NCBI RefSeq assembly: GCF_003319125.1 | Contig: NZ_QOHG01000013.1 | Location: forward strand, 62,001 to 126,000 | Reading direction: 5' to 3' | Length of the DNA stretch: 64,000 nt | From: Blastococcus sp. TF02A-26 | GTDB taxonomy: Bacteria; Actinomycetota; Actinomycetes; Mycobacteriales; Geodermatophilaceae | Shown: positions 8,294 to 52,498 of the stretch, in pieces | How positions within the stretch are numbered: the stretch's first letter is position 1 | How the letters are laid out: each line of letters begins with the position of its first letter | Made by a program: the position numbers and the translations under genes | The notes under the pieces: model-generated | Databases searched by the model: none | The model's input: only the letters and a program-made list of their open reading frames with translations | Told to the model about the DNA's origin: nothing

Positions 8294-8299
8294 ACGTCC

Positions 8300-8509: not shown

Positions 8510-8589
8510 GACCCACCTGTACCCAGCCGGTCCGGAGGTGCCCACGGAACCGCCCGGTCCCGGCGTGGCGTCACACCGGGTGACCGGGC

Positions 8590-33689: not shown

Positions 33690-34420
33690 GTCTGTCGAGT
33701 ATCCGCCAGCCAGTCCAGCGCTTTCTCGACCGTGGCGACGACCGGGACCCCGTCGGGCAGCGGCGGGCGGCGGACCAGCACCACCGGGACGCCCAGGTCC
33801 CGGGCGGCGGTGAGCTTGGCCGCCGTCATGGCGCCGCCGCTGTCCTTGGTCACCAGCACCTCGACGGCGTGCTCGCGCAGGAGCGCCGTCTCCTCCTCGA
33901 CGGTGAACGGCCCGCGGGCGAGCACCACGGTGGTGCGCGGCGGCAGCGGCGGGTCCGGCGGGTCGACCGAGCGCACCAGCACCGCGCCGGTCAGGCCGGC
34001 GAAGGCGGCGAGCCCCTGGCGGCCCGTGGTGAGGAAGATCGACGCCGCGTCCCGGACCGACCCGGCCGCCTCCTCGAGGGAGTCCACCCAACGCCAGTCG
34101 TCGCCGGGGCCGGCCGACCAGCCGGGGCGCTGCAGCCGCAGCAGCGGGGTGCCGGTGGCGGCGGTCGCCGCCGCGGCGTTGCGCGTGATGGCCGCGGCGA
34201 ACGGATGCGTCGCGTCGACGACGGCGTCGACCTCCCCCAGCGCCTCCGCCAGCCCCTCGACACCGCCGAACCCACCGACCCGGACCTCACCGGGCGGGAG
34301 CACCGGGTCGGCCACCCGGCCGGCCAGCGAGCTCAGGACGTCGACGCCGGCCGCGACGAGCGCGGTGGCCAGTCGGCGCGCCTCGCCGGTGCCGCCCAGC
34401 ACGAGCACCCGCGGGCTCAT
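33677..34420 (-). CDS. cobK: Precorrin-6A reductase
   Basis: A 247-aa NADPH-dependent reductase of the C18-C19 double bond in precorrin-6A. The N-terminal nucleotide-binding loop is VLVLGGTGEARRLA, the conserved VVDATHPFAAAITRNA block is in the first half, and TKDSGGAMTAAKLTAA is the C-terminal signature. It is separated by 26 bp from divergently transcribed cbiD. The 3' end overlaps the FusB-like gene start. Confidence 0.93.
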   Translation of the reverse strand: MSPRVLVLGGTGEARRLATALVAAGVDVLSSLAGRVADPVLPPGEVRVGGFGGVEGLAEALGEVDAVVDATHPFAAAITRNAAAATAATGTPLLRLQRPGWSAGPGDDWRWVDSLEEAAGSVRDAASIFLTTGRQGLAAFAGLTGAVLVRSVDPPDPPLPPRTTVVLARGPFTVEEETALLREHAVEVLVTKDSGGAMTAAKLTAARDLGVPVVLVRRPPLPDGVPVVATVEKALDWLADTRQTWNP

Positions 34421-34446
34421 CGCACCCGCCCAGGCATGCTGGTGCC

Positions 34447-35529: not shown

Positions 35530-35530
35530 G

Positions 35531-35571
35531 CGGAGTCGCTCGAGCGCGGAAATCGTCACCTAGCGACTCCG
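35531..35571. terminator. Hairpin between convergent cbiD and cobM
   Basis: The 10-bp arms CGGAGTCGCT (35531-35540) and AGCGACTCCG (35562-35571) are perfect complements with a 21-nt spacer. The cbiD stop is just outside, and the cobM TAG spans the right-arm edge. Internal sequence weakly resembles the TTCGCGCGCGAG repeat family. Confidence 0.55.
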
Positions 35572-36300
35572 ATGGGTCGAGTAGAGGTGGCTGTCGCGGA
35601 ACTGCTCGGCGGTCAGTGCCCGGCCGACCACCACGATCGCCGTCCGCCTGATCCCGGCGTCGGCGACCTGCGCGGCGATGTCGGCGAGCGTGCCGCGCAG
35701 CACCACCTCGTCGTCCCGGCTGGCGTACGCGACGACGGCGGCCGGGCAGTCGGCGCCGTAGTGCTCGGCCAGCTCGGGTGCGAGCTCGTCCAGCCGCTGC
35801 ACCGCCAGGTGCAGCACCAGCGTCGCGCCGGTGGCCGCGTAGGCCGACAGCTGCTCCCCCGGCGGCATCGGCGTGGAGCGGGCCGAGGTCCGCGTGAGGA
35901 CGACGGTCTGCGCCACCCCCGGCACGGTCAGCTCACGCTTCAGCGCGGCCGCGGCCGCGGCGAACGACGGCACCCCCGGGACGACCTCGTAGGGCACCCC
36001 GGCCGCGTCGAGCCGGCGCATCTGCTCGGCCATCGCGCTGTAGACCGACGGGTCGCCGGAGTGCAGCCGGGCGACGTCGAGACCGGCCTCGTGCGCGGCC
36101 ACCAGCTCGGCGGTGATCTGGTCGAGGTCCAGGTCCGCGGTGTCGACCAGCCGCGCCCCGGCGGGTGCGGTGTCGAGCAGCTCCCGCGGCACGAGCGCAC
36201 CGGCGTAGAGGCAGACCGGAGCCGCCGCGATCAGCCGGGCGGCACGGAGGGTGACGAGGTCGGCCGCACCGGGGCCGGCGCCGATGAAGTGGACGGTCAC
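35560..36300 (-). CDS. cobM: Precorrin-4 C11-methyltransferase
   Basis: A 246-aa SAM-dependent tetrapyrrole methylase with HFIGAGPGAADLVTLRAARL at the N-terminus, LHSGDPSVYSAMAEQ (SAM/substrate loop) and LTRTSARSTPMPPGE, the CobM/CbiF signatures. It methylates C11 of precorrin-4. GTG start at 36300. A repeat copy that includes the cobL stop lies in the 28 bp just upstream, so cobL and cobM are probably co-transcribed with that element between them. Confidence 0.95.
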   Translation of the reverse strand: MTVHFIGAGPGAADLVTLRAARLIAAAPVCLYAGALVPRELLDTAPAGARLVDTADLDLDQITAELVAAHEAGLDVARLHSGDPSVYSAMAEQMRRLDAAGVPYEVVPGVPSFAAAAAALKRELTVPGVAQTVVLTRTSARSTPMPPGEQLSAYAATGATLVLHLAVQRLDELAPELAEHYGADCPAAVVAYASRDDEVVLRGTLADIAAQVADAGIRRTAIVVVGRALTAEQFRDSHLYSTHRSR

Positions 36301-36304
36301 CGCA

Positions 36305-36332
36305 GGGACTCTCGCGCGCGAAGTGCTCTCAC
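36305..36332. repeat. REP-like repeat copy between cobL and cobM
   Basis: Read on the reverse strand it shares the exact 18-mer TTCGCGCGCGAGAGTCCC with the copy inside cobG (26692-26709). Its outer end contributes the TGA stop of cobL (36331-36329). Confidence 0.7.
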
Positions 36333-37546
36333 CGGGTCACGCTCCAGATCGTCACGGGCATGGCGGCCCGCCAGCCGGTGAACGTCCCGACCGGCTCGGC
36401 ACGCTGCACGGCGATGCGCACCAGCTCGCCGCCGACGCGGGCGTGCCACGCGGCCAGCACCGCCTCGCTCTCCACGGTGACCGCGTTGGCCACCAGGCGG
36501 CCGCCGGGCGGCAGCGCCTCCCAGCAGCTGTCCAGCAGGAGCGGGGTGGTGAGCCCGCCGCCGATGAAGACGGCGTCCGGGGTGGGGAGGCGGCCGAGGA
36601 CCTCGGGCGCGGAGCCGTGCACGACACGCAGGTAGGGGACGCCGAGCCGGCCGGCGTTGCGGGCGATCCGGGCCGCCCGCTCCTCGTCGGCCTCGACCGC
36701 CACGGCGCGGCAGGTCGGGTGGGCGCGCATCCACTCGATGCCGATCGAGCCCGAACCGGCCCCGACGTCCCACAGCAGCTGACCCGGGACGGCGGCCAGC
36801 CGCGACAGGGTGACCGCACGGACCTCGGACTTGGTGAGCTGGCCGTCGGACTCGTAGGCGCCGTCGGGCAGGCCGGGCGTGGTGGGCATCGGCATGGTGC
36901 CGCGCTCGGCCCGGCACTCGACCGCGGTGACGACGAGCGCCGGCGCGGGCTGGGACCAGGTGGCCGCGGTGCCGGTGCGCACCGTCTCCTCGGGGCCGCC
37001 CAGGCCGCCGAGGACGGTCACCAGGCTCTCGCCGTAGCCGCGGTCGGCCAGCAGCCGGGCGACGTGCGCCGGGGTGTCGCCGTCGGACCCGAGCACGAGC
37101 AGCCGCGCGCCGGGGTGCACGTGCGGGTGCAGCAGCTCCAGCGGCCGGCCGACGAGGGTCACCACGCAGGTGTCCTCCACGGCCCAGCCCAGCCGGGCGC
37201 AGGCGAGCGAGACCGACGACGGCGCCGGCAGCACCCGCACCCGGTCGGCGCCGAACAGCCGGGTGAGCGTGGTGCCGATCCCCGACAGCATCGGGTCGCC
37301 GCTGGCCAGGACCACGAGGGCCCGCCCGGCGTGCTCCTCCACCAGCCCGGGCAGCGCCTCGCTGAGCGGCGAGGGCCAGGGCACCCGCTCGGCCGTCACC
37401 GACTCCGGCACGAGCTGCAGCTGGCGCCGGCTGCCGAGCAGGACGTCGGCCCGCTCGACCTCCGCGCGCGAGGTGGGCGCCAGGCCGTCCCAGCCGTCGG
37501 CGCCGATGCCCACGACGACGATGGGTGCGCCGACGGCGGCCGTCAC
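36329..37546 (-). CDS. cobL: Precorrin-6Y C5,15-methyltransferase (decarboxylating)
   Basis: A 405-aa two-domain enzyme. The N-terminal CobE/CbiE-type methylase (VVVGIGADGWDGLAP; LASGDPMLSGIGTTL) occupies about 1-210. The C-terminal CbiT-type Rossmann methyltransferase has DVGAGSGSIGIEWMR near residue 258. Together they methylate C5 and C15 and decarboxylate the C12 acetate. The GTG overlaps the def stop, an unexpected coupling of deformylase to a corrin gene. The stop is provided by the repeat at 36305-36332. Confidence 0.95.
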   Translation of the reverse strand: MTAAVGAPIVVVGIGADGWDGLAPTSRAEVERADVLLGSRRQLQLVPESVTAERVPWPSPLSEALPGLVEEHAGRALVVLASGDPMLSGIGTTLTRLFGADRVRVLPAPSSVSLACARLGWAVEDTCVVTLVGRPLELLHPHVHPGARLLVLGSDGDTPAHVARLLADRGYGESLVTVLGGLGGPEETVRTGTAATWSQPAPALVVTAVECRAERGTMPMPTTPGLPDGAYESDGQLTKSEVRAVTLSRLAAVPGQLLWDVGAGSGSIGIEWMRAHPTCRAVAVEADEERAARIARNAGRLGVPYLRVVHGSAPEVLGRLPTPDAVFIGGGLTTPLLLDSCWEALPPGGRLVANAVTVESEAVLAAWHARVGGELVRIAVQRAEPVGTFTGWRAAMPVTIWSVTR

Positions 37547-38079
37547 GAGCGGGACTCCGCGAGCAGCCGCTCGCGCAGGTCCTCCGGGAGCCGGTCGACG
37601 TACACGGTGCCGTCGAGGTGGTCGACCTCGTGCTGCAGGCAGCGGGCCGCCATCCCGGTCGCCTCGATCGTCACCGGTGAACCGTCGGCGTCGACGCCGT
37701 CCACCCGCGCCCGGAACGCGCGCGGCAACTCGGCGTAGGGGCCGGGCACGGAGAGGCAGCCCTCCTCGGTGACCTCCTCGGCCGGGTCGTCGCCGACCGG
37801 CTCCGGGATGGTCAGCACCGGGTTCACGACGTAGCCGACGACGTCCTCGCCGTCGGCGTCTGGGCAGTCGATGACGAAGACCCGCGCGTCGACGCCGATC
37901 TGGTTCGCCGCGAGGCCCACGCCGTCGGCGGCCTCCATGCTGGCGAACATGTCGAGCACGAGGCGGCGCAGGTCGCGGCCGAACTCGGTGACCGGGGCGC
38001 AGGGACGGTGCAGGACCGGGTCGCTGCCGTACGTGACGATCGGGCGGGCGACGCCGTCGTAACGGCCGGGCAGGCGCAT
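37543..38079 (-). CDS. def: Peptide deformylase
   Basis: A 178-aa Fe/Zn hydrolase that removes the formyl group from nascent proteins. All three motifs are present: GVGLAANQIG (53-62), EEGCLS (105-110, metal ligand Cys108) and QHEVDHLDG (149-157, ligands His150 and His154). The start at 38079 gives MRLPGRYDGVARPIVTYG; a slightly shorter start is not available. It lies upstream of cobL in an overlapping pair and diverges from cobD. Whether this is the only deformylase cannot be told. Confidence 0.95.
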   Translation of the reverse strand: MRLPGRYDGVARPIVTYGSDPVLHRPCAPVTEFGRDLRRLVLDMFASMEAADGVGLAANQIGVDARVFVIDCPDADGEDVVGYVVNPVLTIPEPVGDDPAEEVTEEGCLSVPGPYAELPRAFRARVDGVDADGSPVTIEATGMAARCLQHEVDHLDGTVYVDRLPEDLRERLLAESRS

Positions 38080-38110
38080 GCGGCGATCCTAGGGAGCGCC
38101 GGTTGACAGG

Positions 38111-39070
38111 ATGACCGCCGTGCGCGCGGACCGGGACCTGGCGACGGCGGCCGGTCTGGCCCTGGGGGCCGCGGCGGACCTGCTGCTGGCCGATCCCCGG
38201 CGGCTGCACCCCGTGGCGGGGTTCGGCACCGCGGCGGCGGCCCTGGAGCGACGCGCGCACCGGGACTCCCGTGCCGCGGGTGCCGGGTACGCGGCCGTGC
38301 TGGTCGGTGCGGCGGGCGCGCTGGGCGCGGGGCTGGACCGCGCCACCCGTCGGAGGCCGGTGGCCCGCGCGCTCGGAACGGCCGCGGTCACCTGGTCCGT
38401 CCTCGGCGGCACCTCGCTCGGCCGGGCGGCCCGGACCGTCCACCTGCCGCTGGTCGAGGGCGACCTCGCCACCGCCCGGGAGCGGCTGCCCTCCCTCGTC
38501 GGCCGCGACCCCGCCGGCCTGGACGCCGGCGAGCTGGCCCGGGCGACGGTCGAGTCGGTCGCGGAGAACACCTCCGACGCCGCGGTGGCGCCGCTCTTCT
38601 GGGGAGCCGTGGCCGGGCTGCCGGGGCTCACCGCCTACCGGGCGGTCAACACCCTCGACGCGATGGTCGGCCACCGGTCGCCGCGGTACGCGCGGTTCGG
38701 CTGGGCCTCGGCCCGCGCGGACGACGTCGCCAACTGGGTGCCGGCCCGGCTGACGGCGGCGCTCACCGTGGCGGTGGCGCCGCTGACCGGGGCGTCGGCG
38801 GGCGGCGCGCTGCGGATCTGGCTGCGCGACGGCGCGGCGCACCCGAGCCCGAACTCGGGCCGGTGCGAGGCCTCGCTCGCCGGAGCGCTCGGGCTGCGGC
38901 TGGGTGGCCGGAACGTCTACGGCAGCCGGGTGGAGGTGCGGCCGACGATGGGCGACGGCCGGCCGCCGGTGGCCGGCGACATCCCCCGGGCCGTGCGGCT
39001 GTCCCGCGCGGTGTGGACGACGGCCGCCGCCCTCGCCGTGCTCGGCCGGCTCGCCCGACCCCGCTCCTGA
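38111..39070 (+). CDS. cobD: Adenosylcobinamide-phosphate synthase (CobD/CbiB)
   Basis: A 319-aa membrane enzyme that attaches the aminopropanol arm to adenosylcobyric acid. Conserved blocks are DLLLADPRRLHPVAGFG near the N-terminus, VESVAENTSDAAVAPLFW with YRAVNTLDAMVGH in the middle, and SPNSGRCEASLAGALG toward the end. Four or five hydrophobic segments are visible. The ATG at 38111 is 31 bp from the divergent def start. No threonine-phosphate decarboxylase (CobC/CobD-Salmonella type) is seen nearby. Confidence 0.93.
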   Translation: MTAVRADRDLATAAGLALGAAADLLLADPRRLHPVAGFGTAAAALERRAHRDSRAAGAGYAAVLVGAAGALGAGLDRATRRRPVARALGTAAVTWSVLGGTSLGRAARTVHLPLVEGDLATARERLPSLVGRDPAGLDAGELARATVESVAENTSDAAVAPLFWGAVAGLPGLTAYRAVNTLDAMVGHRSPRYARFGWASARADDVANWVPARLTAALTVAVAPLTGASAGGALRIWLRDGAAHPSPNSGRCEASLAGALGLRLGGRNVYGSRVEVRPTMGDGRPPVAGDIPRAVRLSRAVWTTAAALAVLGRLARPRS

Positions 39071-39302: not shown

Positions 39303-40025
39303 TCAGACGGTGCCGATCGGCATCGACGGCGTGAGCTGCCAGGAGGCCGGCACCGCCGCCACGGCGCCGCCCTGCACCGGGGCGAGGTCGAGCACGAGCC
39401 GGGTGGGCTGGAACGCCTCGGCGTACCCGATCCGCGCCTGGGCGCCCCAGTGGCGGGCCGAGGCGACGACCGCGTCCGGCTCGACCATGGCCGAGAGCTC
39501 GACCTGGGTGGCGTGGGCGGCCAGCGCGGCGACCTTGCCCGACAGGTGGGCGGTGACGTCGACGAAGACGGTCGGGCTGAACGAGAGCGTGGAGGGGCTC
39601 TGATAGTGCAGCACCCGCGGCAGCCGGCGGGCGGCGCCCTGCGTCGCCGAGGCCACCGCGCGGTGGTCCTGGTGGCTGTCGTCGGGGGCGTGGACGTAGA
39701 CCAGGTCGGCGCGGGTGGCGCGCAGGACCCGCTCGATCAGGCGGACGGTCTGGGAGTCGGGGACGACCTCGCAGTCGCGCAGCCCGCCCCACACCAGCCG
39801 GGCGCCGATCATCTCCGCGGCACGCTCCTGCTCGGCGCGCCGACCGGCACCGCGGGCGCCGTCGCCGGGCCCGTTCTCGCCACCGGTCACCACGAGCATG
39901 GTCACGGTGTCGCCGGCGGCCACGTGCGCCAGCAGCGCGCCGCCGCAGCCGAGCTCGATGTCGTCGGGATGCGCGCCGATGGCCAGCACGCTGCGCCCCG
40001 CGATCCCCGTGTACCCGCCGTCCAT
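39303..40025 (-). CDS. PIG-L family N-deacetylase (first of a tandem pair)
   Basis: A 240-aa zinc-dependent LmbE/PIG-L deacetylase. The metal motif AIGAHPDDIELGCGG is at residues 14-28, with HAPDDSHQDHRAVASATQG (second metal His and catalytic region) in the middle. Substrates in this family are GlcNAc-type sugars or glycoconjugates. It is a close paralogue of the gene at 40202-40897. The start at 40025 is used because family similarity begins there; a 26-codon extension upstream looks non-coding. Probably tailors the surface glycan made by the neighbouring operon. Confidence 0.85.
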   Translation of the reverse strand: MDGGYTGIAGRSVLAIGAHPDDIELGCGGALLAHVAAGDTVTMLVVTGGENGPGDGARGAGRRAEQERAAEMIGARLVWGGLRDCEVVPDSQTVRLIERVLRATRADLVYVHAPDDSHQDHRAVASATQGAARRLPRVLHYQSPSTLSFSPTVFVDVTAHLSGKVAALAAHATQVELSAMVEPDAVVASARHWGAQARIGYAEAFQPTRLVLDLAPVQGGAVAAVPASWQLTPSMPIGTV

Positions 40026-40144
40026 GGCCGGTGCCCTCCGCTCCCGAGGGCGGCACGCGCCGCCCGATGCCCGTCCATCGGCCGTTCGGTGGAGCGCCTC
40101 CACCGAGAACGGCCCGGACCTCCCCCCTGGGGGTGAGGGAAGGA

Positions 40145-40196
40145 CCTGCCTGCCCCCCCACCACTCGCACGCTCGTGGCGGGCCCCTGCAGGCAGG
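40145..40196 (-). terminator. Terminator-like hairpin after the second PIG-L gene
   Basis: The arms CCTGCCTGC (40145-40153) and GCAGGCAGG (40188-40196) enclose a further CCAC/GTGG stem, forming a long GC-rich hairpin 6 bp past the stop at 40202. A second, imperfect hairpin (CCGTTCGGTGGAG at 40082) lies beyond. These separate the two PIG-L genes into different transcripts. Confidence 0.55.
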
Positions 40197-40201
40197 CCGA
40201 C

Positions 40202-40897
40202 TCAGCCGACGAGACGGGGAGTGGGGACGAGCCGGTGCACCGACGGCAGCGCGTCCTCGGCCCGCCGACGGGGCACCGGCGCCAGGTCCATGACCATCCG
40301 CGTCGGCGCGAACGCCTCCGCGTAGCCGATCCGGGCCTGGGCGCCCCAGTGCCGGGCCGAGGCGACCACGGCGTCGGGCTCGACCATCGCCGACAGCTCC
40401 ACCTGCGAGGCGTGCAGGCCGAGCGCGTGGAGCTTGCCGGTCAGGTGCGCGGTCACGTCGACGTAGACCGTCGGGCTGAACGAGAGCGTCGAGGGGCTCT
40501 GGTAGTGCAGCACCCGCGACAGCCGCCGGGCCGCGCCCTGCGTCGCCGACGCCACCGCGCGGTGGTCCTGGTGGCTGTCGTCGGGCGCGTGCACGTAGAC
40601 GACGTCGGCGCCGGTCTCCTCGAGGACCCCCTCGATGAGCGCCACCGTGCCGGCGTCCGCGGTCAGCATGCAGTCGCGCATGCCGCCCCAGACCAGCCGG
40701 GCACCGAGGCTGCGCGCCGCCGCCTCCTGCTCGAGCCGGCGCCCGGTGACCTGTCCGGGGTCCCCGGGGCCGTTCTCGCCCCCGGTCATCACCAGCATGG
40801 TCACGGAGTCCCCCGCCGCCGCGTGGGCGAGCAGCGTGGCGCCGCAGCCCAGCTCGACGTCGTCGGGGTGCGCCCCGATCGCGAGGACGCTGCGCAC
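40202..40897 (-). CDS. PIG-L family N-deacetylase (second of a tandem pair)
   Basis: A 231-aa LmbE/PIG-L enzyme with AIGAHPDDVELGCG at residues 6-19 and HAPDDSHQDHRAVASATQG. It is highly similar to the gene downstream at 39303-40025 over its whole length (for example RVLHYQSPSTLSFSPT in both), indicating local duplication. The GTG at 40897 lies 5 bp after the stop of the secreted LPADG protein, so both are probably on one mRNA. Likely a sugar N-deacetylase acting on a surface glycan precursor. Confidence 0.84.
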   Translation of the reverse strand: MRSVLAIGAHPDDVELGCGATLLAHAAAGDSVTMLVMTGGENGPGDPGQVTGRRLEQEAAARSLGARLVWGGMRDCMLTADAGTVALIEGVLEETGADVVYVHAPDDSHQDHRAVASATQGAARRLSRVLHYQSPSTLSFSPTVYVDVTAHLTGKLHALGLHASQVELSAMVEPDAVVASARHWGAQARIGYAEAFAPTRMVMDLAPVPRRRAEDALPSVHRLVPTPRLVG

Positions 40898-40902
40898 GGC
40901 CG

Positions 40903-41475
40903 TCAGGCCGCCGCGTCCGCCGACGGCGAGGTCCCCGTCAGGCGCGCCAGCCGGCGGCGGAAGCGGTAGAGCATCGCCGCACCGACGACGCCGGCCGCAC
41001 CGAGCGCGACCGCCGTCCCGGTGCCGTTGCCGTCGGCCGGCAGCTGCGTGGTCGGCGGGCAGACCGTCGCGTACTGCACGTAGTACGAGTAGCGGAGGGT
41101 CTGGCCGTTCAGGATCCAGCGGGCGTCCTGGTAGAAGATCTCCTGGTAGCTCAGCCGCACGGTCCAGGCGCCGTGCACGGTGCCCGCGGCGAACTGCTTG
41201 GGCTGCTGGCCCTGCAGCCGGGTCGGGTAGACCTGGTTCGCCGTCCCGTAGTTGTGGATCTGCTGGCGGCCGGTCGTGTTCTCGTAGCCGAGGACGATCC
41301 AGAAGGTGCCGTCCCCGTTGTCGCGGTAGCAGTCGACGATCGGCGCGACGCCGACGGTCGCCGAGGCGGTGCCCGGGGTGAAGATCGTGGCCAGCGCCGC
41401 GATCACCCCGATCGCCGCGATCCGCGCGAGCCGCGCACGGATGCGCGCGCCGGTCTTCCTGCTGGTGCCTGCCAT
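40903..41475 (-). CDS. Secreted protein with LPADGNG C-terminal sorting-like tail (A)
   Basis: A 190-aa protein. It has a basic N-terminus and a signal peptide ending near ATIFTPGTASA, then an extracellular domain of about 115 residues with two Cys (VDCYRDNGDGTFWIVLGY; ATVCPPTTQ). A tripartite tail follows: TQLPADGNG, a hydrophobic helix (AVALGAAGVVGAAMLY) and RFRRRLARL. The tail resembles sortase or exosortase sorting signals, but position 4 of the motif is Asp rather than Thr. Paralogous to the next gene upstream. Function unknown; an exosortase-like gene lies 3.6 kb upstream on the same strand. Confidence 0.8.
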   Translation of the reverse strand: MAGTSRKTGARIRARLARIAAIGVIAALATIFTPGTASATVGVAPIVDCYRDNGDGTFWIVLGYENTTGRQQIHNYGTANQVYPTRLQGQQPKQFAAGTVHGAWTVRLSYQEIFYQDARWILNGQTLRYSYYVQYATVCPPTTQLPADGNGTGTAVALGAAGVVGAAMLYRFRRRLARLTGTSPSADAAA

Positions 41476-41570
41476 GGCGTCGTCCCTCGGGTGCTCCGGA
41501 GCGGCCTTCCCGCTCCACCCGGGTGGCATCGGACGATGCGTCGCCGATCTGGAGGGTCTGCCGGCCGAAG

Positions 41571-42107
41571 TCACCCCATCGAGGGAGGTGCGGTCCCAGC
41601 GGTGCCGCGCCGGCGGTGCCATGCCTCGACGACGAGCGCGCCGGCGCCCAGGACGGCGGAGCCGCCGAGACCCATGGCCCAGCCCCAGCCGTTGCCGTCC
41701 GCCGGCAGCTGGGTGGACGACGGGCACGCCGTGCTCCCGGTCCGGTACGCGGTGACCCGGCTGTCGTACAGCTCCCACTGGATGCTGCTGTACGCCGATG
41801 GCACGCGGACCGTGAAGACGGCGTGGTGGGTGCCGGGAGCGAAGGTCTCGACCTGCGCGCCGTTGAAGAGGTCGGGGTCGAAGTCGTTGTCCCCGCCGAC
41901 CGGCTGGCTCTGGGTGACCGACGTCGAGTTCGTGTAGCCGAAGATCGCGGTCCAGTAGCCGTCCTGCACCGCGGTCACGCAGGACACGAGCGGGGCGACC
42001 GGGTCGGCGGCCGCGGCAGCACCGGGGGTGGCCAGCACCACCGCGGCTCCGATCGCCACGGTCACCGCCGACCGTGTGGATGTCCCGCGTGCTCTCGTGC
42101 CCCGCAT
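41571..42107 (-). CDS. Secreted protein with LPADGNG C-terminal sorting-like tail (B)
   Basis: A 178-aa paralogue of the preceding protein. It has a signal peptide (MRGTRARGTSTRSAVTVAIG through GAAAA) and an ectodomain with VSCVTAVQDGYWTAIFGYTN aligning to the DCYRDNGDGTFWIVLGYEN region of protein A, two Cys, then STQLPADGNG, a helix (AMGLGGSAVLGAGALVV) and a HRRRG tail. CP-x-(S/T)-TQLPADGNG is identical in layout in both, suggesting processing by one enzyme. The ATG at 42107 is chosen over an upstream ATG because the signal peptide begins there. No ribosome site as strong as GGAGG is visible. Confidence 0.78.
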   Translation of the reverse strand: MRGTRARGTSTRSAVTVAIGAAVVLATPGAAAAADPVAPLVSCVTAVQDGYWTAIFGYTNSTSVTQSQPVGGDNDFDPDLFNGAQVETFAPGTHHAVFTVRVPSAYSSIQWELYDSRVTAYRTGSTACPSSTQLPADGNGWGWAMGLGGSAVLGAGALVVEAWHRRRGTAGTAPPSMG

Positions 42108-42215
42108 CGTGCGTCCCTCGGATCGGGGCGGCCCGTCCGCCCTGCACCTCGACAACGGCATGCGCGCGGCCCGACCCGAGGGGATGCGGCGCAGGACCAC
42201 CCGGAGGTGGGAGGG

Positions 42216-42932
42216 TCACGCAGGGACGGCGGACCCGAGCATCTCGAGCGCGAGCGCCGCGGCGGCCGGGAACGAGTCGACGACGGCCTCGGCCCGCGGC
42301 TCGTCCGGCGCGTGCGCGTACTCCCCCTGGCGGATGCGGACGGCCCGGGCACCCACGGCGGCCGCCACCGCGACGTCCTTGCCCGGCCGGTCACCGATGA
42401 CCAGGACCCGGTCGGCGGGGACGCCCAGCCGGTCGGCGAGCGCGAGCAGCCCGGCGGGGTGCGGCTTGCGCGCCGCCCGGCCGCCGAGGGTGTCGGTGAC
42501 GAGCACCTCGCCGAGCAGCGGTCCGAGCCCGGTCGCGGCCACCTTGGCGGCCTGGATGACCGGGTTGCCGTCGGTCAGGCAGCCCAGCGGCGCGGCGGCG
42601 GCCAGCGCGGCCAGGGCCTCCGGCACGCCCGGGTAGGGCGTCAAGGTGTCCGGCTCGTGCCGGGTGAAGGCAGCCACCAGCGGCGGCACCAGCGCGGGGA
42701 GGTCACGGGCCGGCACCCCGGCCGCCAGCAGCGCCCGGTCGATCGTGCCTCCGGCGTCGGAGCCGGCGGCCAGTTCGCGGACGAGCGCCGCGTGCACGCC
42801 GGCGCCGTCGACGCCCAGCCCGGTCGCGGCGGCACCGACGGCGGCGGCCGCGCCGGCCAGGTAGTCGGCCTGCGGGTAGAGGGTGTCGTCAAGGTCGACG
42901 ACGACGGCCAGCGGCAGGAGCGGTGCGGTCAC
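42216..42932 (-). CDS. HAD-family hydrolase closing the glycan operon
   Basis: A 238-aa haloacid-dehalogenase-like protein. Motif I VVVDLDDTLYPQ is at residues 9-20, motif II is CLTDGNP, the motif III lysine is in AARKPHP and motif IV is VIGDRPGKDV. The cap domain lies between motifs I and II. The GTG overlaps the wecB stop. In surface-glycan operons such proteins act as sugar-phosphate phosphatases, the likely role here, with no specific substrate evident. Confidence 0.83.
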   Translation of the reverse strand: MTAPLLPLAVVVDLDDTLYPQADYLAGAAAAVGAAATGLGVDGAGVHAALVRELAAGSDAGGTIDRALLAAGVPARDLPALVPPLVAAFTRHEPDTLTPYPGVPEALAALAAAAPLGCLTDGNPVIQAAKVAATGLGPLLGEVLVTDTLGGRAARKPHPAGLLALADRLGVPADRVLVIGDRPGKDVAVAAAVGARAVRIRQGEYAHAPDEPRAEAVVDSFPAAAALALEMLGSAVPA

Positions 42933-44080
42933 CAGGGCAGCCGCCCGTCGGTGAAGTCCGGCTCCTCGATCGCCAGCAGCGCGTCGGTCGCCTCGTCGGC
43001 GAGGATCGCGGCGACCTGCGGACCGGTGGTCCCGTCGCCGTACGGGCACGGCAGGGACGCCGCCCGCGCCAGCTCCGCGGGGGCGGTGTGCCGGGCCGCC
43101 GCGGCGAGCACGGCGTCGGCCGCGCTGTCGTCGGCCAGGCTCGCCAGCGTGGTGGTGCCCGCCTCGACGCCCTCCCAGCGCGGGGTCGAGCCGCGGAGGA
43201 CGACGACCGGGACCCCGAGGTAGGCCGCCTCCTCCTGGATGCCGCCGGAGTCGGTGACCGCGATCCGCGCCGAGGCCAGGGCGGTCAGCAGCTCGTCGTA
43301 GCCGACCGGGCCGCTCAGCGAGATCGCCGGGTGGTCGAGCTCGGCGTCGAGACCGGTCGCGGCCAGCCGCCCCGCGGTGCGCGGGTGCACCGGGAAGGTC
43401 ACCGGCCCCACCTGCTCGGCCAGGGAGCGGACGATGCCGACCAGTCGCTTCAGCCGCACCGGGTCGTCGACGTTCGTCGGCCGGTGCGCGGTGACGAGGA
43501 CGCCGGTGCGCTCGGCGACCGGGACCGCCCGCACCCCGCGCCCGACCAGGGTGTCGACCACCGGGTTGCCGACGACGAACACGCGCTCGTCGGGGACCCC
43601 CTCGGCGGCGAGGAAGGCCGCGGCGCGCCGGGTGGGGGCCAGGTGAAGCGCGGCGACGGCGGCGGCGACCCGGCGGTTGACCTCCTCGACGCTGCGCGGG
43701 TTCAGGCTGCGCAGCCCCGCCTCGAGGTGGGCGAAGGGGATGCCCGCGCCGCGAGCGGCCAGCGCGTACGCCGGCACGGTGTTGGTGTCGCCGAGCGCGA
43801 GGACGACGTCGGGCCGGTACTCCCCCACCGCGCGGGCGGCGTCGGCGTGCAGCGCGCCGAGCCGGCTCGCCGGGGAGTCGGTCGGCAGCGCGAAGCGGCG
43901 CGTGGGCACCAGACCGAGGGCCTGCTGCAGCTCGCCGGCCAGCGCCGGGTCGGTGTGCTGCCCGGTGTCGACGACGTCCACGCGGTGCCCGGCCGCGGTC
44001 AGCGCGGTGACCACCGGTGCCAGCTTGACGACCTCCGGGCGGGTGCCGAAGGGCACCAGCACCGACCGGCTGCGGGTCAC
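42929..44080 (-). CDS. wecB: UDP-N-acetylglucosamine 2-epimerase (WecB-type)
   Basis: A 383-aa non-hydrolysing UDP-GlcNAc 2-epimerase that makes UDP-ManNAc. Recognisable from VPFGTRPEVVKLAPVV at the N-terminus, DTGQHTD, HLEAGLRSLN, LVTAHRPTNVDD, FPVHPRTAG and TDSGGIQEEAAYLGVP. Start GTG at 44080, inside the stop of the ATP-grasp gene. It indicates that the operon builds or modifies a ManNAc-containing surface polymer. No UDP-ManNAc dehydrogenase (wecC) is adjacent. Confidence 0.92.
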   Translation of the reverse strand: MTRSRSVLVPFGTRPEVVKLAPVVTALTAAGHRVDVVDTGQHTDPALAGELQQALGLVPTRRFALPTDSPASRLGALHADAARAVGEYRPDVVLALGDTNTVPAYALAARGAGIPFAHLEAGLRSLNPRSVEEVNRRVAAAVAALHLAPTRRAAAFLAAEGVPDERVFVVGNPVVDTLVGRGVRAVPVAERTGVLVTAHRPTNVDDPVRLKRLVGIVRSLAEQVGPVTFPVHPRTAGRLAATGLDAELDHPAISLSGPVGYDELLTALASARIAVTDSGGIQEEAAYLGVPVVVLRGSTPRWEGVEAGTTTLASLADDSAADAVLAAAARHTAPAELARAASLPCPYGDGTTGPQVAAILADEATDALLAIEEPDFTDGRLPW

Positions 44081-45117
44081 GCCCACACCGCCGCGGACAC
44101 GGAGGGGTCGGCCACCGGGGCGCCGGACCGGTCGGTGAAGACCTCGGCGTGGTAGCGGCGCATGCTCACGCCGGGGGTGAACCAGAGGTGCTCCAGCTGC
44201 CGGTCCGGCTCGCGGATGCCGGTCAGGTAGGCGCTGACGACGTCGGCGCCGGCGGCGAGGGTGAGCGGGAGGCCGCCGGAGAACCGGGGGTTGATCTCCA
44301 CCACGGCCGCGTCGCCGTCGGGCGCCACGAAGCCCTGCACGTTGGCCGGCCCGGTCAGCCCCACGGCCTCGAGCGCGCCGACGACGACGTCGGTCACCGC
44401 CTCCGAGTCGAAGGTGGTGCCCTTCACCGAGATGCCGGCCTTGGTCTCCTCCCGCCAGCGCGGGACGACGGTGAGGATCTCCCCGGTGCGGGAGACGAGC
44501 GTGTCCGCGGTGAACTCGCGCCCGTGCAGCCGGGTCTGGGCGACCAGCGACGGGTCGGTGCACAGCGCCTCCACCACCTCCGACCGGCGGTCGAGCAGGC
44601 GCACGCCGCGGCTGCCCCGGCCGGCGCGCGGCTTGACGACCCACGGGCCGGGGACCTCGACCAGCGCCGAGGTGGTGTCGGTGGTCGGCGGGTGCGGCAC
44701 GCCGGCGGCCCGCAGCGTCCGGGCGAAGGCAGCCTTGTCGCAGCACACCGCCACGGCCGCCGGGTCGGCCAGCCACGTGGCCACGCCGGCGGCGGCCAGC
44801 CGGTCGGCGCCGGCGGAGAGCGCCGGCAGCTCCTCGGCCACGGTCGGGATCAGCGCGTCGGCGCCCTGTGCGGTGGCGACCGCGACGAGGGCGTCGACGA
44901 AGTGCGGGTGGTCGGCCCGGGGCACGGTGAGCCCGACGGTCGCCAGCGCGGCGCCGGTCGCCGTCGGGTCGGCGTCCACCGCGACGACGCGGTGCCCGAG
45001 CGCGATGAGCCGGCGCACGACCGCGATGCCGGCCGGGCCGCCGGCGCCGGTGACGATCACCGCCGGAGCGGCACCCCCGGGCACGGCGTCGGGTCGGGTG
45101 GTGAGGAGCGAGGTCAC
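44077..45117 (-). CDS. ATP-grasp domain ligase (carbamoyl-phosphate-synthase-like)
   Basis: A 346-aa protein. A Rossmann-like N-terminal domain (VIVTGAGGPAGIAVVRRLIA) is followed by an ATP-grasp fold: CCDKAAFARTLRAAGVPHPP, WVVKPRAGRGSRGV (ATP-binding Lys), and VEINPRFSGGLPLTL (Mg-binding Glu/Asn). Members of this group ligate an acid to an amine, often in glycan or peptide-like natural product loci. The acceptor is unknown. GTG start overlapping the exosortase-like gene stop. It could add an amino acid to the glycan intermediate. Confidence 0.85.
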   Translation of the reverse strand: MTSLLTTRPDAVPGGAAPAVIVTGAGGPAGIAVVRRLIALGHRVVAVDADPTATGAALATVGLTVPRADHPHFVDALVAVATAQGADALIPTVAEELPALSAGADRLAAAGVATWLADPAAVAVCCDKAAFARTLRAAGVPHPPTTDTTSALVEVPGPWVVKPRAGRGSRGVRLLDRRSEVVEALCTDPSLVAQTRLHGREFTADTLVSRTGEILTVVPRWREETKAGISVKGTTFDSEAVTDVVVGALEAVGLTGPANVQGFVAPDGDAAVVEINPRFSGGLPLTLAAGADVVSAYLTGIREPDRQLEHLWFTPGVSMRRYHAEVFTDRSGAPVADPSVSAAVWA

Positions 45118-46403
45118 CGGGACACCTCCGGGTGGGGGTCGGCGGGGAGCGGGCGGGCGAAGCTGGACGGGCGCGAGGCGTCGGGGGCGCGGTGCCGGCC
45201 GCGGCGCTCGGGGCCGTCGTAGCTGCCGGGCTCGGCGCGGCGCCGCTCGGGACCGGCGTAGCCGCCGGGGGGTGGCGGGGGTGTGCGGAGCCCGATCAAC
45301 GGGACACGGGTGGTCTCGTCGAGGTCCGGGGAGACCTCGTGCTCGGGCAGGTGGACGACGTCGTCGTCGTCCTCGGGGTGGCGGGCGAGCAGCCAGCCGC
45401 GGGCCCACAGCCGCAGCGCCGCCACCCGGTGCGAGGTGACGGGCTCCCACTGGCGCGCGGCGATCGCCAGGGCGAGGCAGTCGAGGACGTAGGGGTCCTC
45501 CTCGTAGGTGGCGACGGCGACCAGCGAGGCGCCGTGCGCGCCCAGGCCGTCGGCGACCAGCTCGCGGATGCGGGCCATGCGGGCCGGCGCGGGGAGGTGC
45601 CCGATGCGGTAGTCGATCCGGCCGCGCTCGCGGCGGGCGGCCAGCCGCTTCGACGCCCACGACGGGAGGACGTAGCGGTACATCAGCCCGGTGAGGTTGA
45701 GCCGCCGGCGCTGCGCCGCGGGCAGCACGCCCTCGACGGTCCGGTAGCCGAGACCGGGGCGGGCCCAGCTGTCGGGGCGGCGGGCGGTGTGCCGGCCGTC
45801 GACGTCCTGCTCGGCCCGCTCCGGGGTGGGCAGCGTCAGCCAGACCATCAGGAGGAAGCCGGCGAGGGTGGCGACGAGGTTCCACAGCGTGCCCACCCAG
45901 TCGTGGAACAGCACCAGCGCGGCGTCGCCCCACCACATGCCGGCCAGGGCCGAGAACAGCAGCCGCAGGTGGTTGAGCAGGAGGAGCGCGGCGACCGCGA
46001 CGAGGAGACCGCCCAGGGCGTGCAGCTTGCGGCTGCGCAGCACGACGGCGGTCAGCGCGGTGAGGCCGAGTACCGAGAGGATCGACGAGCACGACGCGGT
46101 GACGACCGCGTCGATGACGGCGCCGTTCTCGGGGAACAGCAGCACGTGCCCGGGCAGCACGCCCGAGGCCTGGCCGGGGTAGATCCAGGACATGACCTGC
46201 GCGAGGCCCCGGGCCTCCAGCTCGCGCATGGGCATCTGCAGGTAGCGGAAGCCGAGCAGGCAGATCGCCGCGGCGAGGACCAGGTCGCCGGCGACCGGCA
46301 GCAGCCGGCGGCCGCTCCCCCGCCGGATGAGGCCGGCCCGGCGCGCGGGGGCGGGCGGCGTGGCGGCGCCGGCGGCGGGCCGACGTCCGAGGACGGCGGT
46401 CAC
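45114..46403 (-). CDS. Exosortase/archaeosortase-family membrane protein with C-terminal extension
   Basis: A 429-aa protein. The N-terminal 190 residues are polytopic and contain the exosortase triad layout: Cys105 in TASCSSILSVLG, Arg147 in LLLNHLRLLFSA, and His167 in LFHDWVGTLWN. Exosortases are membrane transpeptidase-like proteins that process C-terminal sorting signals. Residues of about 230-360 form a soluble helical domain I do not recognise, followed by a Pro/Arg-rich disordered tail. It is coupled by GTGA to the GT2 gene upstream and the ATP-grasp gene downstream. From memory, exosortase G (XrtG) loci of Gram-positive bacteria also pair with a GT2. Confidence 0.72.
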   Translation of the reverse strand: MTAVLGRRPAAGAATPPAPARRAGLIRRGSGRRLLPVAGDLVLAAAICLLGFRYLQMPMRELEARGLAQVMSWIYPGQASGVLPGHVLLFPENGAVIDAVVTASCSSILSVLGLTALTAVVLRSRKLHALGGLLVAVAALLLLNHLRLLFSALAGMWWGDAALVLFHDWVGTLWNLVATLAGFLLMVWLTLPTPERAEQDVDGRHTARRPDSWARPGLGYRTVEGVLPAAQRRRLNLTGLMYRYVLPSWASKRLAARRERGRIDYRIGHLPAPARMARIRELVADGLGAHGASLVAVATYEEDPYVLDCLALAIAARQWEPVTSHRVAALRLWARGWLLARHPEDDDDVVHLPEHEVSPDLDETTRVPLIGLRTPPPPPGGYAGPERRRAEPGSYDGPERRGRHRAPDASRPSSFARPLPADPHPEVSR

Positions 46404-47851
46404 CGGCTCCCCACCTCCTGGGGCTCCGTAGCGGCGAGGGCGAAGCTCCGCGGCCGCTCGGGGGCCGCGGTGGCGACCGGGGCGACCGTCTCCGACAGCG
46501 GGGACGGGAGGGCGGCGGTGGGGCGCACCGTGGACGTCGCGCCGGAACGCGAGGTCTTCACCCAGGTGTAGGGGCGGCCGAGCATGCCGTCGACGTAGGC
46601 CCGGGTGGTGATCCAGATGGAGAGGGCGAACGCCGGCAGGAAGCCGAGCAGGCGCCAGGCCGACCGGCGCTCCACGCGGCCGATGAGCAGGCCCACGCAG
46701 AGCTCGGCCAGCGGGCCGACGAACAGCAGCATCGACAGCGGGAGCACCGCCACGACCGGCAGGTCACCGATGCCGAAGGCGCGCAGCACCGTGAGGAGCA
46801 CGCCGAGGCCGGCGAAGACCGGGACGTGGTAGACGAGCAGGAAGAGCGTCGTCTCCACCTTCTCCAGCACGGAGAGGTGGCGCGAGCGCATGAGCGGCCA
46901 CCAGTAGTCGCGCGCGCACTTCTGGTGGCCCCGGGCCCAGCGGTAGCGCTGCTTCCAGAAGCGCTGGGCGGTGACGACCGCTTCCTCGTAATCGATCGCC
47001 GAGACGTCGTAGCGGACCCGCTGGCCGGCCATGACGATGCGCAGGGTGAGGTCGGTGTCCTCGGTGACCGTCTCGGGGTTCCACCCACCGAGGGCACGCA
47101 GGGTCGACATCCGCACCGCGCAGTTGGCGCCGCCGTAGGCCGGCAGCTCGAACAGCGCCTGGCGGCCGTACTCGTTGACCAGGTAGCCGGAGAGGTAGTC
47201 GACGAACACCGTGCCGGCCATGTGCGAGTCCTGGCCGTTGCGGATCACGCAGCGGCCCATGACGGCGCCCACGGAGGGGTCGCGGAAGTGCCGGACCAGC
47301 CGGCGCAGGGCCGTCGGCTCCGGCTCGTGGTCGGCGTCGAAGACGAGGACGACCTCGGCGTCGACGAGCTCCAGGGCGTCGTTGAGCGCGCCGGACTTCC
47401 CGCCGCCGGACCCGACCGCCCGGTGCAGCACCCGCAGTCGCGGCTCGATCGCCGCCCAGGCGTCGAGCTTCTCGCCCGTGCGGTCGTCGGAGCCGTCGTC
47501 CACCACGACGAGGGTCAGCCGGTCGGCGGGGTAGTCCAGCGCCAGCAGCGCGGTGACCATGCCGTCGACGACGAGTTCCTCGTTCTTGCAGCCCACGAAG
47601 ACCGCGACCTGCGGGGTGTAGCCCTCCAGGCCGACGTCGGCGGCGAGGAGGTCGCGCTCGGCCCAGCGGGCGGCGGCGACGGCGAAGGCGAGGTGCCGGC
47701 AGAAGAAGATCGCGAAGACGACGTTGAGCGCGCCGGCGATGGCCCCGAGCACCGGGTCGGCCCCGAAGAGCCAGATGGTGCCGGTCAGCGCAGCGGCGTA
47801 GAGCAGGAGGACCCAGCGTCTCCCCTCGGGCCGTGCGCTGGTGGTGGCCAC
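46400..47851 (-). CDS. Family 2 glycosyltransferase, membrane-bound, cellulose-synthase-like
   Basis: A 483-aa processive-type GT2 with hydrophobic helices at both ends. Catalytic motifs are VVVDDGSDDRTG, VLVFDADHEPEP (D-x-D), TVTEDTDLTLR (TED) and QRYRWARGH (Q-x-x-RW). It probably polymerises or transfers a sugar across the membrane for an exopolysaccharide or glycoprotein. The GTG at 47851 is chosen because GGAGGAGGGG lies 5 nt upstream. A GTG 17 codons earlier lies within a palindrome and lacks a ribosome site. First gene of the coupled GT2-exosortase-ATP-grasp-wecB-HAD operon. Confidence 0.9.
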   Translation of the reverse strand: MATTSARPEGRRWVLLLYAAALTGTIWLFGADPVLGAIAGALNVVFAIFFCRHLAFAVAAARWAERDLLAADVGLEGYTPQVAVFVGCKNEELVVDGMVTALLALDYPADRLTLVVVDDGSDDRTGEKLDAWAAIEPRLRVLHRAVGSGGGKSGALNDALELVDAEVVLVFDADHEPEPTALRRLVRHFRDPSVGAVMGRCVIRNGQDSHMAGTVFVDYLSGYLVNEYGRQALFELPAYGGANCAVRMSTLRALGGWNPETVTEDTDLTLRIVMAGQRVRYDVSAIDYEEAVVTAQRFWKQRYRWARGHQKCARDYWWPLMRSRHLSVLEKVETTLFLLVYHVPVFAGLGVLLTVLRAFGIGDLPVVAVLPLSMLLFVGPLAELCVGLLIGRVERRSAWRLLGFLPAFALSIWITTRAYVDGMLGRPYTWVKTSRSGATSTVRPTAALPSPLSETVAPVATAAPERPRSFALAATEPQEVGSR

Positions 47852-50336: not shown

Positions 50337-51002
50337 GTGCTCTACGCCGTCGCGAGGTTCGTGCTGCGACCGCTGGCCCGCGCCGTCCTGCGCATCTCCG
50401 TCACCGGCCGGGAGCACGTGCCGGCCTCCGGCGCCGTGATCCTCGCCAGCAACCACCTGTCGTTCATCGACAGCATGGTCATCCCGCTGGCCGCCCCGCG
50501 TCAGGTCCGCTACCTGGCCAAGGCCGAGTACTTCACGACTCCGGGGCTCGGCGGCTGGGTGACCCGCACCCTGTTCACCGCGCTGGGCGCCCTGCCGGTG
50601 GAGCGCGAGACCCACCGGGCCGCGCAGGCCGCGCTCGACACCGCCCTGGGCGTGCTGCACGACGAGGGCGCCTTCGGCATCTACCCCGAGGGCACCCGCT
50701 CCCGCGACGGCCGGCTGGCCCGGGGCAAGACGGGCGTCGCCTGGCTCGCGCTGACCGCCGACTGCCCCGTCGTCCCGGTGGCGGTGCACGGCACGGACCG
50801 GGTCCAGCCGGTCGGGGCGACCTGGCCGCGGCCGCACCGGGTCTCGGTCACCTTCGGCCCGCCGCTGACCTTCCCCGAGCACCGCGGCGCGGCCCGCAAC
50901 GGCCGCGCCCGCCGCGAGGTGACCGACCGGATCATGGAGGCGATCGCCGGGCTGTCCGGGCAGGAGAAGGCCGGGTGGGGCGACCCGCGCGAGGCCGCGT
51001 GA
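50337..51002 (+). CDS. plsC: 1-acyl-sn-glycerol-3-phosphate acyltransferase (PlsC family)
   Basis: A 221-aa membrane-associated acyltransferase of phospholipid synthesis. The catalytic H-x4-D is in [11 protein letters not shown] (about residues 38-48), and the acyl-acceptor motif is [15 protein letters not shown]. An N-terminal hydrophobic or amphipathic stretch anchors it. The start follows GAGGCGCGGCC, and the stop overlaps the GTG of cobQ, coupling an unrelated lipid gene to cobalamin synthesis. Confidence 0.88.
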
Positions 51003-52498
51003 GCGGCGCGCTCCTGGTCGCCGGCACCACCTCCGACGCGGGGAAGTCCGTCGTCACCGCGGGGATCTGCCGCTGGCTGGCGCGCCAGGGCGTCTCCGTG
51101 GCGCCGTTCAAGGCGCAGAACATGAGCAACAACTCGATGGTGACCGCCGACGGCGCCGAGATCGGCCGCGCGCAGGTCATGCAGGCCGCGGCGGCGCGGG
51201 TCGAGCCCGAGGCGCACATGAACCCGGTGCTGCTCAAGCCCGGCGGGGAGAACTCGTCGCAGGTGGTCGTGCTGGGTCGGCCGGTCGCCGAAGTGACGGC
51301 GCTGTCCTACCGGCCGATGAAGGCCGCGCTGCTCGAGCAGGTCCTGGCCTCGCTGGCCGAGCTGCGCTCGCGGTTCGACGTCGTCGTCTGCGAGGGCGCC
51401 GGCTCCCCCACCGAGATCAACCTGCGGGCCGACGACATCGCCAACATGGGGCTGGCGACGGCGGCGCGGCTGCCCGTGGTGGTGGTCGGCGACATCGACC
51501 GGGGCGGGGTGTTCGCCGCGCTGTACGGCACGGTCGCGCTCATGCCGCCGGCCGACCAGCGACTGGTCGCCGGGTTCCTGGTCAACAAGTTCCGCGGGGA
51601 CGCCCGCCTGCTCGCCCCCGGGCTGGACGAGCTGGCCCGGCTCACCGGCCGGCCGACGCTCGGGGTGCTCCCCTGGCTGCCCGGGGCGGCCGTCGACGTC
51701 GAGGACTCCCTCGGCGTGCCCACCGGCGTCTCGTCGGCCGGTCCGCCGCACGGGGAGGAGGTGCTGCGCGTCTCGGTGGCCCGGCTCCCCCGGCTGTCGA
51801 ACTTCACCGACCTCGACGCGCTGGCCGCCGAACCCGGCGTCCTCGTGCGGTACGCGACCCGACCCGAGGAGCTGGCCGACGCCGACCTGGTGGTGCTGCC
51901 CGGCACGCGGTCCACCGTCGCCGACCTCCGCTGGCTGCGGGAGACCGGGCTGGCCGACGCGGTGCTGCGGCGGGCCGCCGAGGGGCGGCCGGTGCTCGGC
52001 ATCTGCGGCGGTCACCAGATGCTGGCCCGCACCATCACCGACGACGTCGAGTCGCGGGCCGGGGTGGTCCCCGGGCTGGGGCTGCTCCCGGCCGACGTCG
52101 TCTTCGCCCCGGAGAAGACCCTCGGCCGGCCGGAGGGGACGGCGCTGGGGGTGCCGGTGCGCGGGTACGAGATCCACCACGGCGTGGTCGCGCTCGACGA
52201 CTCCGCCGAGCCCTTCCTCGACGGCGCCCGCGCGGGGGCGGTGTGGGGCACCACCTGGCACGGGGCGCTGGAGGGCGACGAGTTCCGCCGCGCCTTCCTC
52301 GCCGAGGTCGCCCGGGCGGCCGGACGGCGGTTCGTCGCCGCGCCGGACACCTCGTTCGCCGCCGTCCGGGAGGCCCGGCTCGACGCCCTCGGCGACCTGG
52401 TCGCCGAGCACGCCGACACCGACGCGCTGTGGCGGCTGGTCGAGTCCGGCCCGCCCGGGGACCTGCCGCTGCTCGGGCCGGGCGCCGGGTCCCGCTGA
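50999..52498 (+). CDS. cobQ: Cobyric acid synthase
   Basis: A 499-aa glutamine-dependent amidotransferase that amidates four carboxylates of adenosylcobyrinate a,c-diamide. The N-terminal dethiobiotin-synthetase-like domain has [10 protein letters not shown] (P-loop) and [13 protein letters not shown]. The class I glutaminase domain has the nucleophile in GICGGHQML, and [10 protein letters not shown] is typical of the C-terminal part. The GTG at 50999 overlaps the plsC stop. Confidence 0.95.

Follow-up and report, generated by a model that had tools for sequence, protein, structure and literature searches.

A 64,000-nucleotide stretch of the genome of the soil-type actinobacterium Blastococcus sp. 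TF02A-26 (contig NZ_QOHG01000013.1, positions 62,001 to 126,000; hereafter the window) carries on its minus strand, from position 47851 to 39303, an island of nine genes in which an exosortase-like enzyme lies among sugar-related genes and two genes for secreted proteins. Along that strand the genes encode a family 2 membrane glycosyltransferase (GT2), the exosortase (XRT), an ATP-grasp ligase, a WecB-type non-hydrolysing UDP-GlcNAc 2-epimerase, a HAD-family phosphatase, two secreted paralogues (SEC1 and SEC2) and two PIG-L/LmbE-type de-N-acetylases, all at the positions given by an initial annotation made from the letters alone. The first five are coupled by 4-base-pair (bp) stop/start overlaps, as that annotation had also proposed: the GT2/XRT, XRT/ATP-grasp, ATP-grasp/WecB and WecB/HAD junctions each read GTGA. 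What is new here is that this exosortase system has a signal and an enzyme group of its own and, probably, an unusual pathway for its acceptor that has been conserved.

Judged from its sequence, the 429-residue XRT (45114–46403, minus strand, as for every window feature below) holds as an exosortase at the superfamily level. In hidden Markov model searches it scored 36.1 bits against the superfamily model TIGR04178 (cut-off 23), bearing out the exosortase-like identity first suggested, and 31 of 31 family members matched the same model at E ≤ 0.001. An alignment of XRT with 30 homologues (31 rows, excluding G029, G058, G060 and G079, where the frame is merged with another gene or cut) has Cys105 (46091–46089), Arg147 (45965–45963) and His167 (45905–45903) in invariant columns; these are the residues singled out by the initial annotation, and they span a putative catalytic region at 45903–46091. 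In the predicted structure (model m6c79e650f0f9; mean predicted local distance difference test (pLDDT) 71.2, predicted template modelling score 0.45), Cys105 starts one long helix (residues 105–121) and Arg147 and His167 lie in the next two (126–158 and 160–190), all of which we read as membrane helices. The membrane core (approximately residues 27–190) is followed by a C-terminal helical, HEAT-like domain (approximately residues 237–346; 45366–45695), which had no Pfam match at E ≤ 0.01 and whose profile finds relatives in two distant loci, L174 and L175, described below.

The secreted Ig-like protein SEC1 (41571–42107) and its paralogue SEC2 (40903–41475), linked to it by alignment and family search, end in the same type of sorting tail. 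Across 38 aligned SEC proteins the tail follows the consensus C-x(n)-P-x-x-[GA]-N-G, then a hydrophobic helix and a basic cluster, with C128, P135, N139 and G140 (SEC1 numbering) invariant. The SEC1 tail (41574–41726) has CPSSTQLPADGNG ahead of its helix and basic cluster, and the SEC2 tail (40906–41061), also recovered by a tail-only profile, has CPPTTQLPADGNG. P-x-x-[GA]-N-G is present in 38 of the 38 proteins and LPADG, which the initial annotation had taken for the conserved signal, in 12. The LPXTG-like character implied by that choice was not supported either: LPxTG itself occurs in one of the 38, neither TIGR01167 nor other LPXTG models matched SEC1 or SEC2 at E ≤ 0.1, and among the family members TIGR01167 and Gram_pos_anchor each matched three (best E 0.043 and 0.07, respectively). 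LPXTG-type sorting is disfavoured by these motif counts and anchor models and by the phyletic pattern given below.

Of the window's 347 stop-to-stop frames of at least 100 residues, two have P-x-x-[GA]-N-G within their final 60 residues, namely SEC1 and SEC2. An LPADGNG-type DNA pattern occurs twice in the genome, each time inside the island, and the tail-only profile gave no third strong match there. The P-x-x-A-N-G variant is found in three genomes (G014, G028 and G047), whose XRT proteins belong to one supported group of five that includes G011 and G020. In the predicted SEC1 structure (model mbd78db760da0), strands run from residue 37 to 121 at high pLDDT and a helix spans residues 152–168. 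The modelled body is a beta-sandwich, nearest to Ig-like and other sandwich folds with VIA-align Z scores of at most 6.5, a middling value that does not indicate function; Foldseek found no match to it in the PDB at E ≤ 0.001.

The same 96 Geodermatophilaceae genomes, 11 of which lie outside our completeness and contamination bar, were searched for XRT, SEC, the tail and the ATP-grasp protein. XRT was present in 33 and SEC in 32, all of them XRT-positive, so that SEC accompanies XRT in 32 of 33 genomes and occurs in none of the 63 XRT-negative genomes, which have neither (Fisher p 1.1e-24 for the association, uncorrected for kinship). The two travel together within genera g3 (XRT in 2 and SEC in 2 of 9 genomes), g4 (17 and 17 of 20), g6 (5 and 5 of 18) and g12 (2 and 2 of 18), and, with the exception of genome G079, within g11 (3 and 2 of 16). 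The tail-only profile gave 51 matches at E ≤ 4.1e-10, one to three per genome and all within the 32 genomes carrying both, with P-x-x-[GA]-N-G readable in the strongly matching tails; the next match (E 4.9e-4) is restricted to the hydrophobic part. In nine genomes (G001, G004, G036, G041, G046 (twice), G054, G065, G091 and G095) a total of ten SEC genes are separated from XRT by approximately 42 kilobases (kb) or more, or by a contig boundary, and the motif is retained in every one of them. Since the tail profile (33 sequences) and the SEC profile (38) draw mostly on these 96 genomes, the strength of the matches is partly built in, which does not apply to their absence from the other 63; with scoring limited to the 35 or 72 best first-look candidates per genome in the SEC and tail searches, weak relatives may be missed. 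Five loci taken to duplicate family genomes were left out (L037, L038 and L041–L043, for G001, G013, G069, G050 and G085), as was L044, which has no twin that we saw and carries GT2, XRT, ATP-grasp, WecB, HAD, two SEC genes and one PIG-L gene; L039 and L040 are in the alignments and stand outside the counts of 33. XRT and the tail proteins are well supported as a sorting pair, as the initial annotation had anticipated in placing XRT with GT2 and the tail proteins; the contrary evidence named by that annotation, tail proteins in a genome lacking the exosortase, was seen in none of the 63 XRT-negative genomes.

Family scans upheld the names first given to the remaining genes. GT2 (46400–47851; PF13641/PF00535) has the processive-type motifs DxD, TED and QxxRW, patterns present in 32 of 32 homologues; its closest solved structure is 6yv7 (E 1.7e-19), and it scored 128.7 bits against PgaC_IcaA (cut-off 422) and 91.1 against an XrtP-associated glycosyltransferase model (cut-off 520). 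The ATP-grasp ligase (44077–45117) matches PF02655, PF15632 and the PylC-like N-domain PF21360 (32.5 bits versus a cut-off of 27) and the solved structure 2pn1 (E 2.3e-23). WecB (42929–44080) exceeds the TIGR00236 cut-off (223.1 versus 210.15 bits) and the HAD phosphatase (42216–42932) that of PF00702 (71 versus 26.4). Both de-N-acetylases match PF02585 (cut-off 28.2), PIG-L 2 (40202–40897) with 79.5 bits and PIG-L 1 (39303–40025) with 87.3; PIG-L 2 also matches the diacetylchitobiose deacetylase 8bgn (E 1.4e-9). The pair stayed below the BshB1 equivalog cut-off (95.1 and 83.4 versus 182.5), and the MshB and Mca equivalogs also failed, with lower scores.

Every one of the 33 genomes has both GT2 and PIG-L alongside XRT; for PIG-L of G013, which shares a separate 4.4-kb contig with two SEC genes, the linkage is by inference. 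WecB and HAD stand with XRT in 32 of 33, on a second contig in G060, G079 being cut by a contig end. SEC belongs to the module run in 31 of the 33 genomes, a count that takes in G013 by the same inference and G060, where it sits on the second contig beside ATP-grasp, WecB and HAD. An ATP-grasp orthologue (66–100% identity) is present in all 33 XRT-positive genomes (as fragments in two, G060 and G079) and absent from every XRT-negative genome of the 96. Separately, a 39–42% identical ATP-grasp relative lies elsewhere in XRT-negative g12 genomes (G012, G034, G038, G043, G057 and G084, among others) and in the XRT-positive G060. In five loci (L068, L070, L072, L073 and L078) PIG-L is instead located beyond GT2, and homologues (E ≤ 1e-20) of seven genes flanking the island in the window were found in only 3 of 32 fetched loci (L047, L048 and L056), which suggests that the site of the module varies. 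Genera are intermixed in the XRT tree, where G011 (g11) joins G020 (g12) and two g6 rows fall inside a g4 group, a pattern that transfer of the entire module, or deep paralogy, would account for. The genes for cutter, tail and sugar are inherited as a unit.

Most of the module recurs outside the class of the window genome. TIGR04178 was matched (E ≤ 0.001) in 14 of 246 genomes drawn across the actinobacterial phylum: the window genome and 13 that belong to other classes. In two genomes of other actinobacterial classes, G325 (locus L174) and G284 (L175), GT2, XRT, ATP-grasp and PIG-L stand together, with identities to the window proteins of 57 and 59% for GT2, 32 and 35% for XRT, 50 and 49% for ATP-grasp and 50–51% for PIG-L. 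G325 also has WecB (52%) and HAD (46%); in G284, the ATP-grasp gene overlaps XRT by 4 bp and the contig ends just behind it. The Cys, Arg and His contexts of both exosortases match those of XRT. The HEAT-like domain, fused to XRT in the window, makes up the N-terminal portion of ATP-grasp in L175 (E 4.9e-11) and a separate protein in L174 (4011–4916, E 5.1e-12), the latter just below the HEAT_2 cut-off (25.7 versus 27.7 bits). That different lineages join this domain to different partners, here the exosortase and there the ATP-grasp protein, argues that the two enzymes work together.

In a further genome, G181, a SEC-domain protein (E 1.7e-19) overlaps by 4 bp the beginning of the gene for an exosortase of another kind (L173:6845–7519 and 7516–8970), and the gene after the exosortase weakly matches a cellulose-synthase model (24.7 bits against a cut-off of 699). 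The L173 exosortase is longer, scores 25.3 bits against the XrtA model (cut-off 208) and has an extra C-terminal region with no Pfam match at E ≤ 0.01. Beside the G325 module lie two small proteins, L174:4011–4916 and L174:12952–13335, each with one N-terminal hydrophobic stretch by eye; the second resembles the first in look only and was missed by the HEAT-like profile.

The cleavage, transpeptidation, acceptor and order of synthesis that we infer can be set out as follows. A SEC protein would be exported by its N-terminal signal peptide and then retained by the C-terminal helix and basic cluster; the exosortase, through Cys105, Arg147 and His167, would recognise P-x-x-[GA]-N-G beside the helix, cut there and form a thioester; the amine of a lipid-linked sugar would then resolve this intermediate, leaving SEC on an envelope glycolipid or glycan. 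On the acceptor side, WecB would convert UDP-GlcNAc to UDP-N-acetylmannosamine (UDP-ManNAc), PIG-L de-N-acetylation would free an amine, the ATP-grasp enzyme would add an amino acid (or like carboxylate) to that amine as an amide, HAD would remove a phosphate at some step and GT2 would put the sugar on its carrier. Amide formation from a carboxylate and an amine is characteristic of ATP-grasp enzymes with this fold. That the exosortase processes P-x-x-[GA]-N-G proteins is highly probable. We also favour, with rather less assurance, a role of the neighbouring genes in making the exosortase acceptor, and lean slightly towards regarding the island as a self-contained exosortase system whose neighbours supply that acceptor. 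The acceptor is probably an amine-bearing sugar lipid of ManNAc type, possibly aminoacylated, and a ManNAc-derived, deacetylated glycan is a plausible form of it; an aminoacylated amino sugar in particular is somewhat doubtful. Still more tentative is the complete picture, in which the exosortase and a HEAT-coupled ATP-grasp enzyme would join P-x-x-[GA]-N-G proteins to a purpose-built aminoacyl-amino-sugar lipid. The interpretation first offered for the island, attachment of the tail proteins to such a glycan or to the envelope, seems right in outline, with the motif corrected to P-x-x-[GA]-N-G.

The sortase of the type IX secretion system (T9SS) is unrelated to exosortases, and its host is Gram-negative. 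In the PorU/A-lipopolysaccharide (Wbp/Vim) system of T9SS, as portrayed in PMC7468200, a protein C-terminus is joined to a sugar that has been deacetylated and then aminoacylated, and the authors speculate there on a similar compound for exosortases. T9SS differs in using the transferase VimA in place of ATP-grasp and VimE (carbohydrate esterase 4) in place of PIG-L. Among archaea, amine-bearing-lipid enzymes, PssA and PssD, are described as needed for archaeosortase A processing and anchoring in Haloferax, and lipid-amine synthesis genes as adjoining artA in Methanosarcina (PMC7157517); that system differs in offering a phospholipid amine, not a sugar amine, and in its PGF-CTERM substrates (PMC11980579). 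Rhombosortase, as told in PMC7157517 and PMC7468200, uses a glycerophosphoethanolamine-containing moiety.

Several observations weigh against our interpretation. XRT falls below the Pfam model PF09721 (Exosortase_EpsH; 19.3 bits, or 21.1 in the genome search, versus 25.7), which the related enzymes of L174 (27.2) and L175 (37.9) pass, and Foldseek found no match to the XRT model in the PDB at E ≤ 0.001. G079 has XRT with no SEC match (the assembly is 84% complete, with XRT at the edge of a 9.5-kb contig), and G004 has no SEC gene in the island and one elsewhere. Tail and SEC domain were never found apart among the family matches, so the tail is unproven as a portable signal. Proteins of G325 and G284 that we guess to be substrates from position and shape have tripartite tails lacking P-x-x-[GA]-N-G, as does the SEC-domain protein of G181, so the signal would vary between lineages while the sugar genes stay. 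The ATP-grasp protein matches families with no assigned substrate, and amide formation by it is suggested by family membership. Finally, the genome has five classical sortase genes and one tail protein matches the sortase-linked LAETG model (E 0.0051). These last points, with the resemblance of LPADG to LPxTG, would suit a classical sortase that handles the tails while the exosortase-like protein acts on a glycan; the scarcity of LPADG and LPxTG among the 38 tails, the few and poor TIGR01167 matches and the confinement of the tails to XRT-positive genomes make this very improbable. That an ordinary polysaccharide cluster merely adjoins unrelated secreted proteins, which are commonly found beside glycan genes, is less credible still: the set recurs in XRT-positive genomes with uncut contigs, save for SEC in G004, even though PIG-L is located beyond GT2 in five loci, and most of it recurs in the two genomes outside the class.

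A more serious alternative follows the PEP-CTERM/EpsH pattern: GT2 would make an exopolysaccharide from a WecB-derived precursor, XRT would free SEC or anchor it to lipid so that it joins the polymer, and the sugar genes would not be acceptor-making. GT2 has processive-synthase motifs and resembles PgaC/IcaA, and Gram-negative exosortases are reported within exopolysaccharide loci (PMC1569441). No polymerase, flippase or exporter family was found among the nine window genes, however, the wider flanks of the other loci being unannotated, and the ATP-grasp gene, which a plain polymer would not be expected to need, strictly follows the distribution of XRT and is linked to it through the shared HEAT-like domain; we consider this alternative unlikely. 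Less likely again is that GT2 and the sugar genes glycosylate SEC, with XRT processing as a separate step on the same protein. The co-inheritance of sugar and substrate genes fits this, as does the XrtG set of Lactiplantibacillus, which according to PMC12854382 pairs an exosortase, a CTERM protein and two glycosyltransferases, but neither an oligosaccharyltransferase nor a flippase family was found among the nine window genes, and the ATP-grasp enzyme and deacetylases would need another role.

Were acceptor synthesis by the island borne out, the exosortase acceptor, long unknown (PMC7468200 calls the substrate-linked compound of bacterial exosortases unidentified), would be encoded beside its enzyme, and a short, strictly co-inherited gene list would be at hand from which it can be deduced. 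Annotation would gain a new C-terminal signal, exosortase sorting would be placed in Gram-positive actinobacteria, and the pattern of sortase-like enzymes standing beside genes for their own amine acceptor would be extended. Among described systems, XrtG/Firmicu-CTERM of Lactobacillaceae is alike in being a Gram-positive exosortase, CTERM substrate and glycosyltransferases found as a set, whereas the passage of PMC12854382 that describes the set names no ATP-grasp, WecB, HAD or PIG-L, and the tail here is P-x-x-[GA]-N-G. Membership in the XrtG type, which the initial annotation had cited for its pairing with GT2, was not supported, the XrtG-associated glycosyltransferase model TIGR03111 giving 57 bits versus 364. 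Every named exosortase or archaeosortase model matched at E ≤ 0.1 left XRT below its cut-off; the nearest, XrtS (NF033767; 48.9 versus 145) and XrtR (NF012138; 26.9 versus 150), matched 31 and 23 of the 31 family members at E ≤ 0.001, and the C-terminal HEAT-like domain sets XRT apart. We found no description of XrtS substrates or neighbours for comparison. EpsH (exosortase A, PEP-CTERM) shares the conserved Cys, Arg and His, a tripartite tail and glycan genes (PMC1569441), but XRT matches only positions 111–253 of the 254 in PF09721, and the island has another motif, one substrate family seen and a Gram-positive host. The tail on these exported proteins appears to be previously undescribed: in the open literature searched on exosortases, archaeosortases, sorting signals and XrtG we saw no description of the island system, an absence that is unproven for subscription papers.

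A mobile or defence element was also considered for the island and rejected: none of its nine proteins matched PADLOC at E ≤ 0.001. PHROG gave no match at E ≤ 0.1 for the C-terminal part of XRT, SEC1 or SEC2, and a plasmid search gave none for XRT or SEC1. As read from their translations, the surrounding genes (33677–39070 and 50999–52498) are apparently for cobalamin synthesis. Three other stretches (L176, L177 and L178, from genomes G221 and G243) carry an exosortase with no NCBIfam match at E ≤ 1e-5 and a GT2 relative (184–193 bits); these stretches, two of which are short contigs, showed neither an ATP-grasp nor a PIG-L relative. In a genome listed under the window's phylum, an XrtX/XrtH-like exosortase below both cut-offs (L166:2399–4095) directly follows a 374-residue frame ending VPATSKWSILMLGLGG...RRK, a tail resembling what we take to be the IPTL type.

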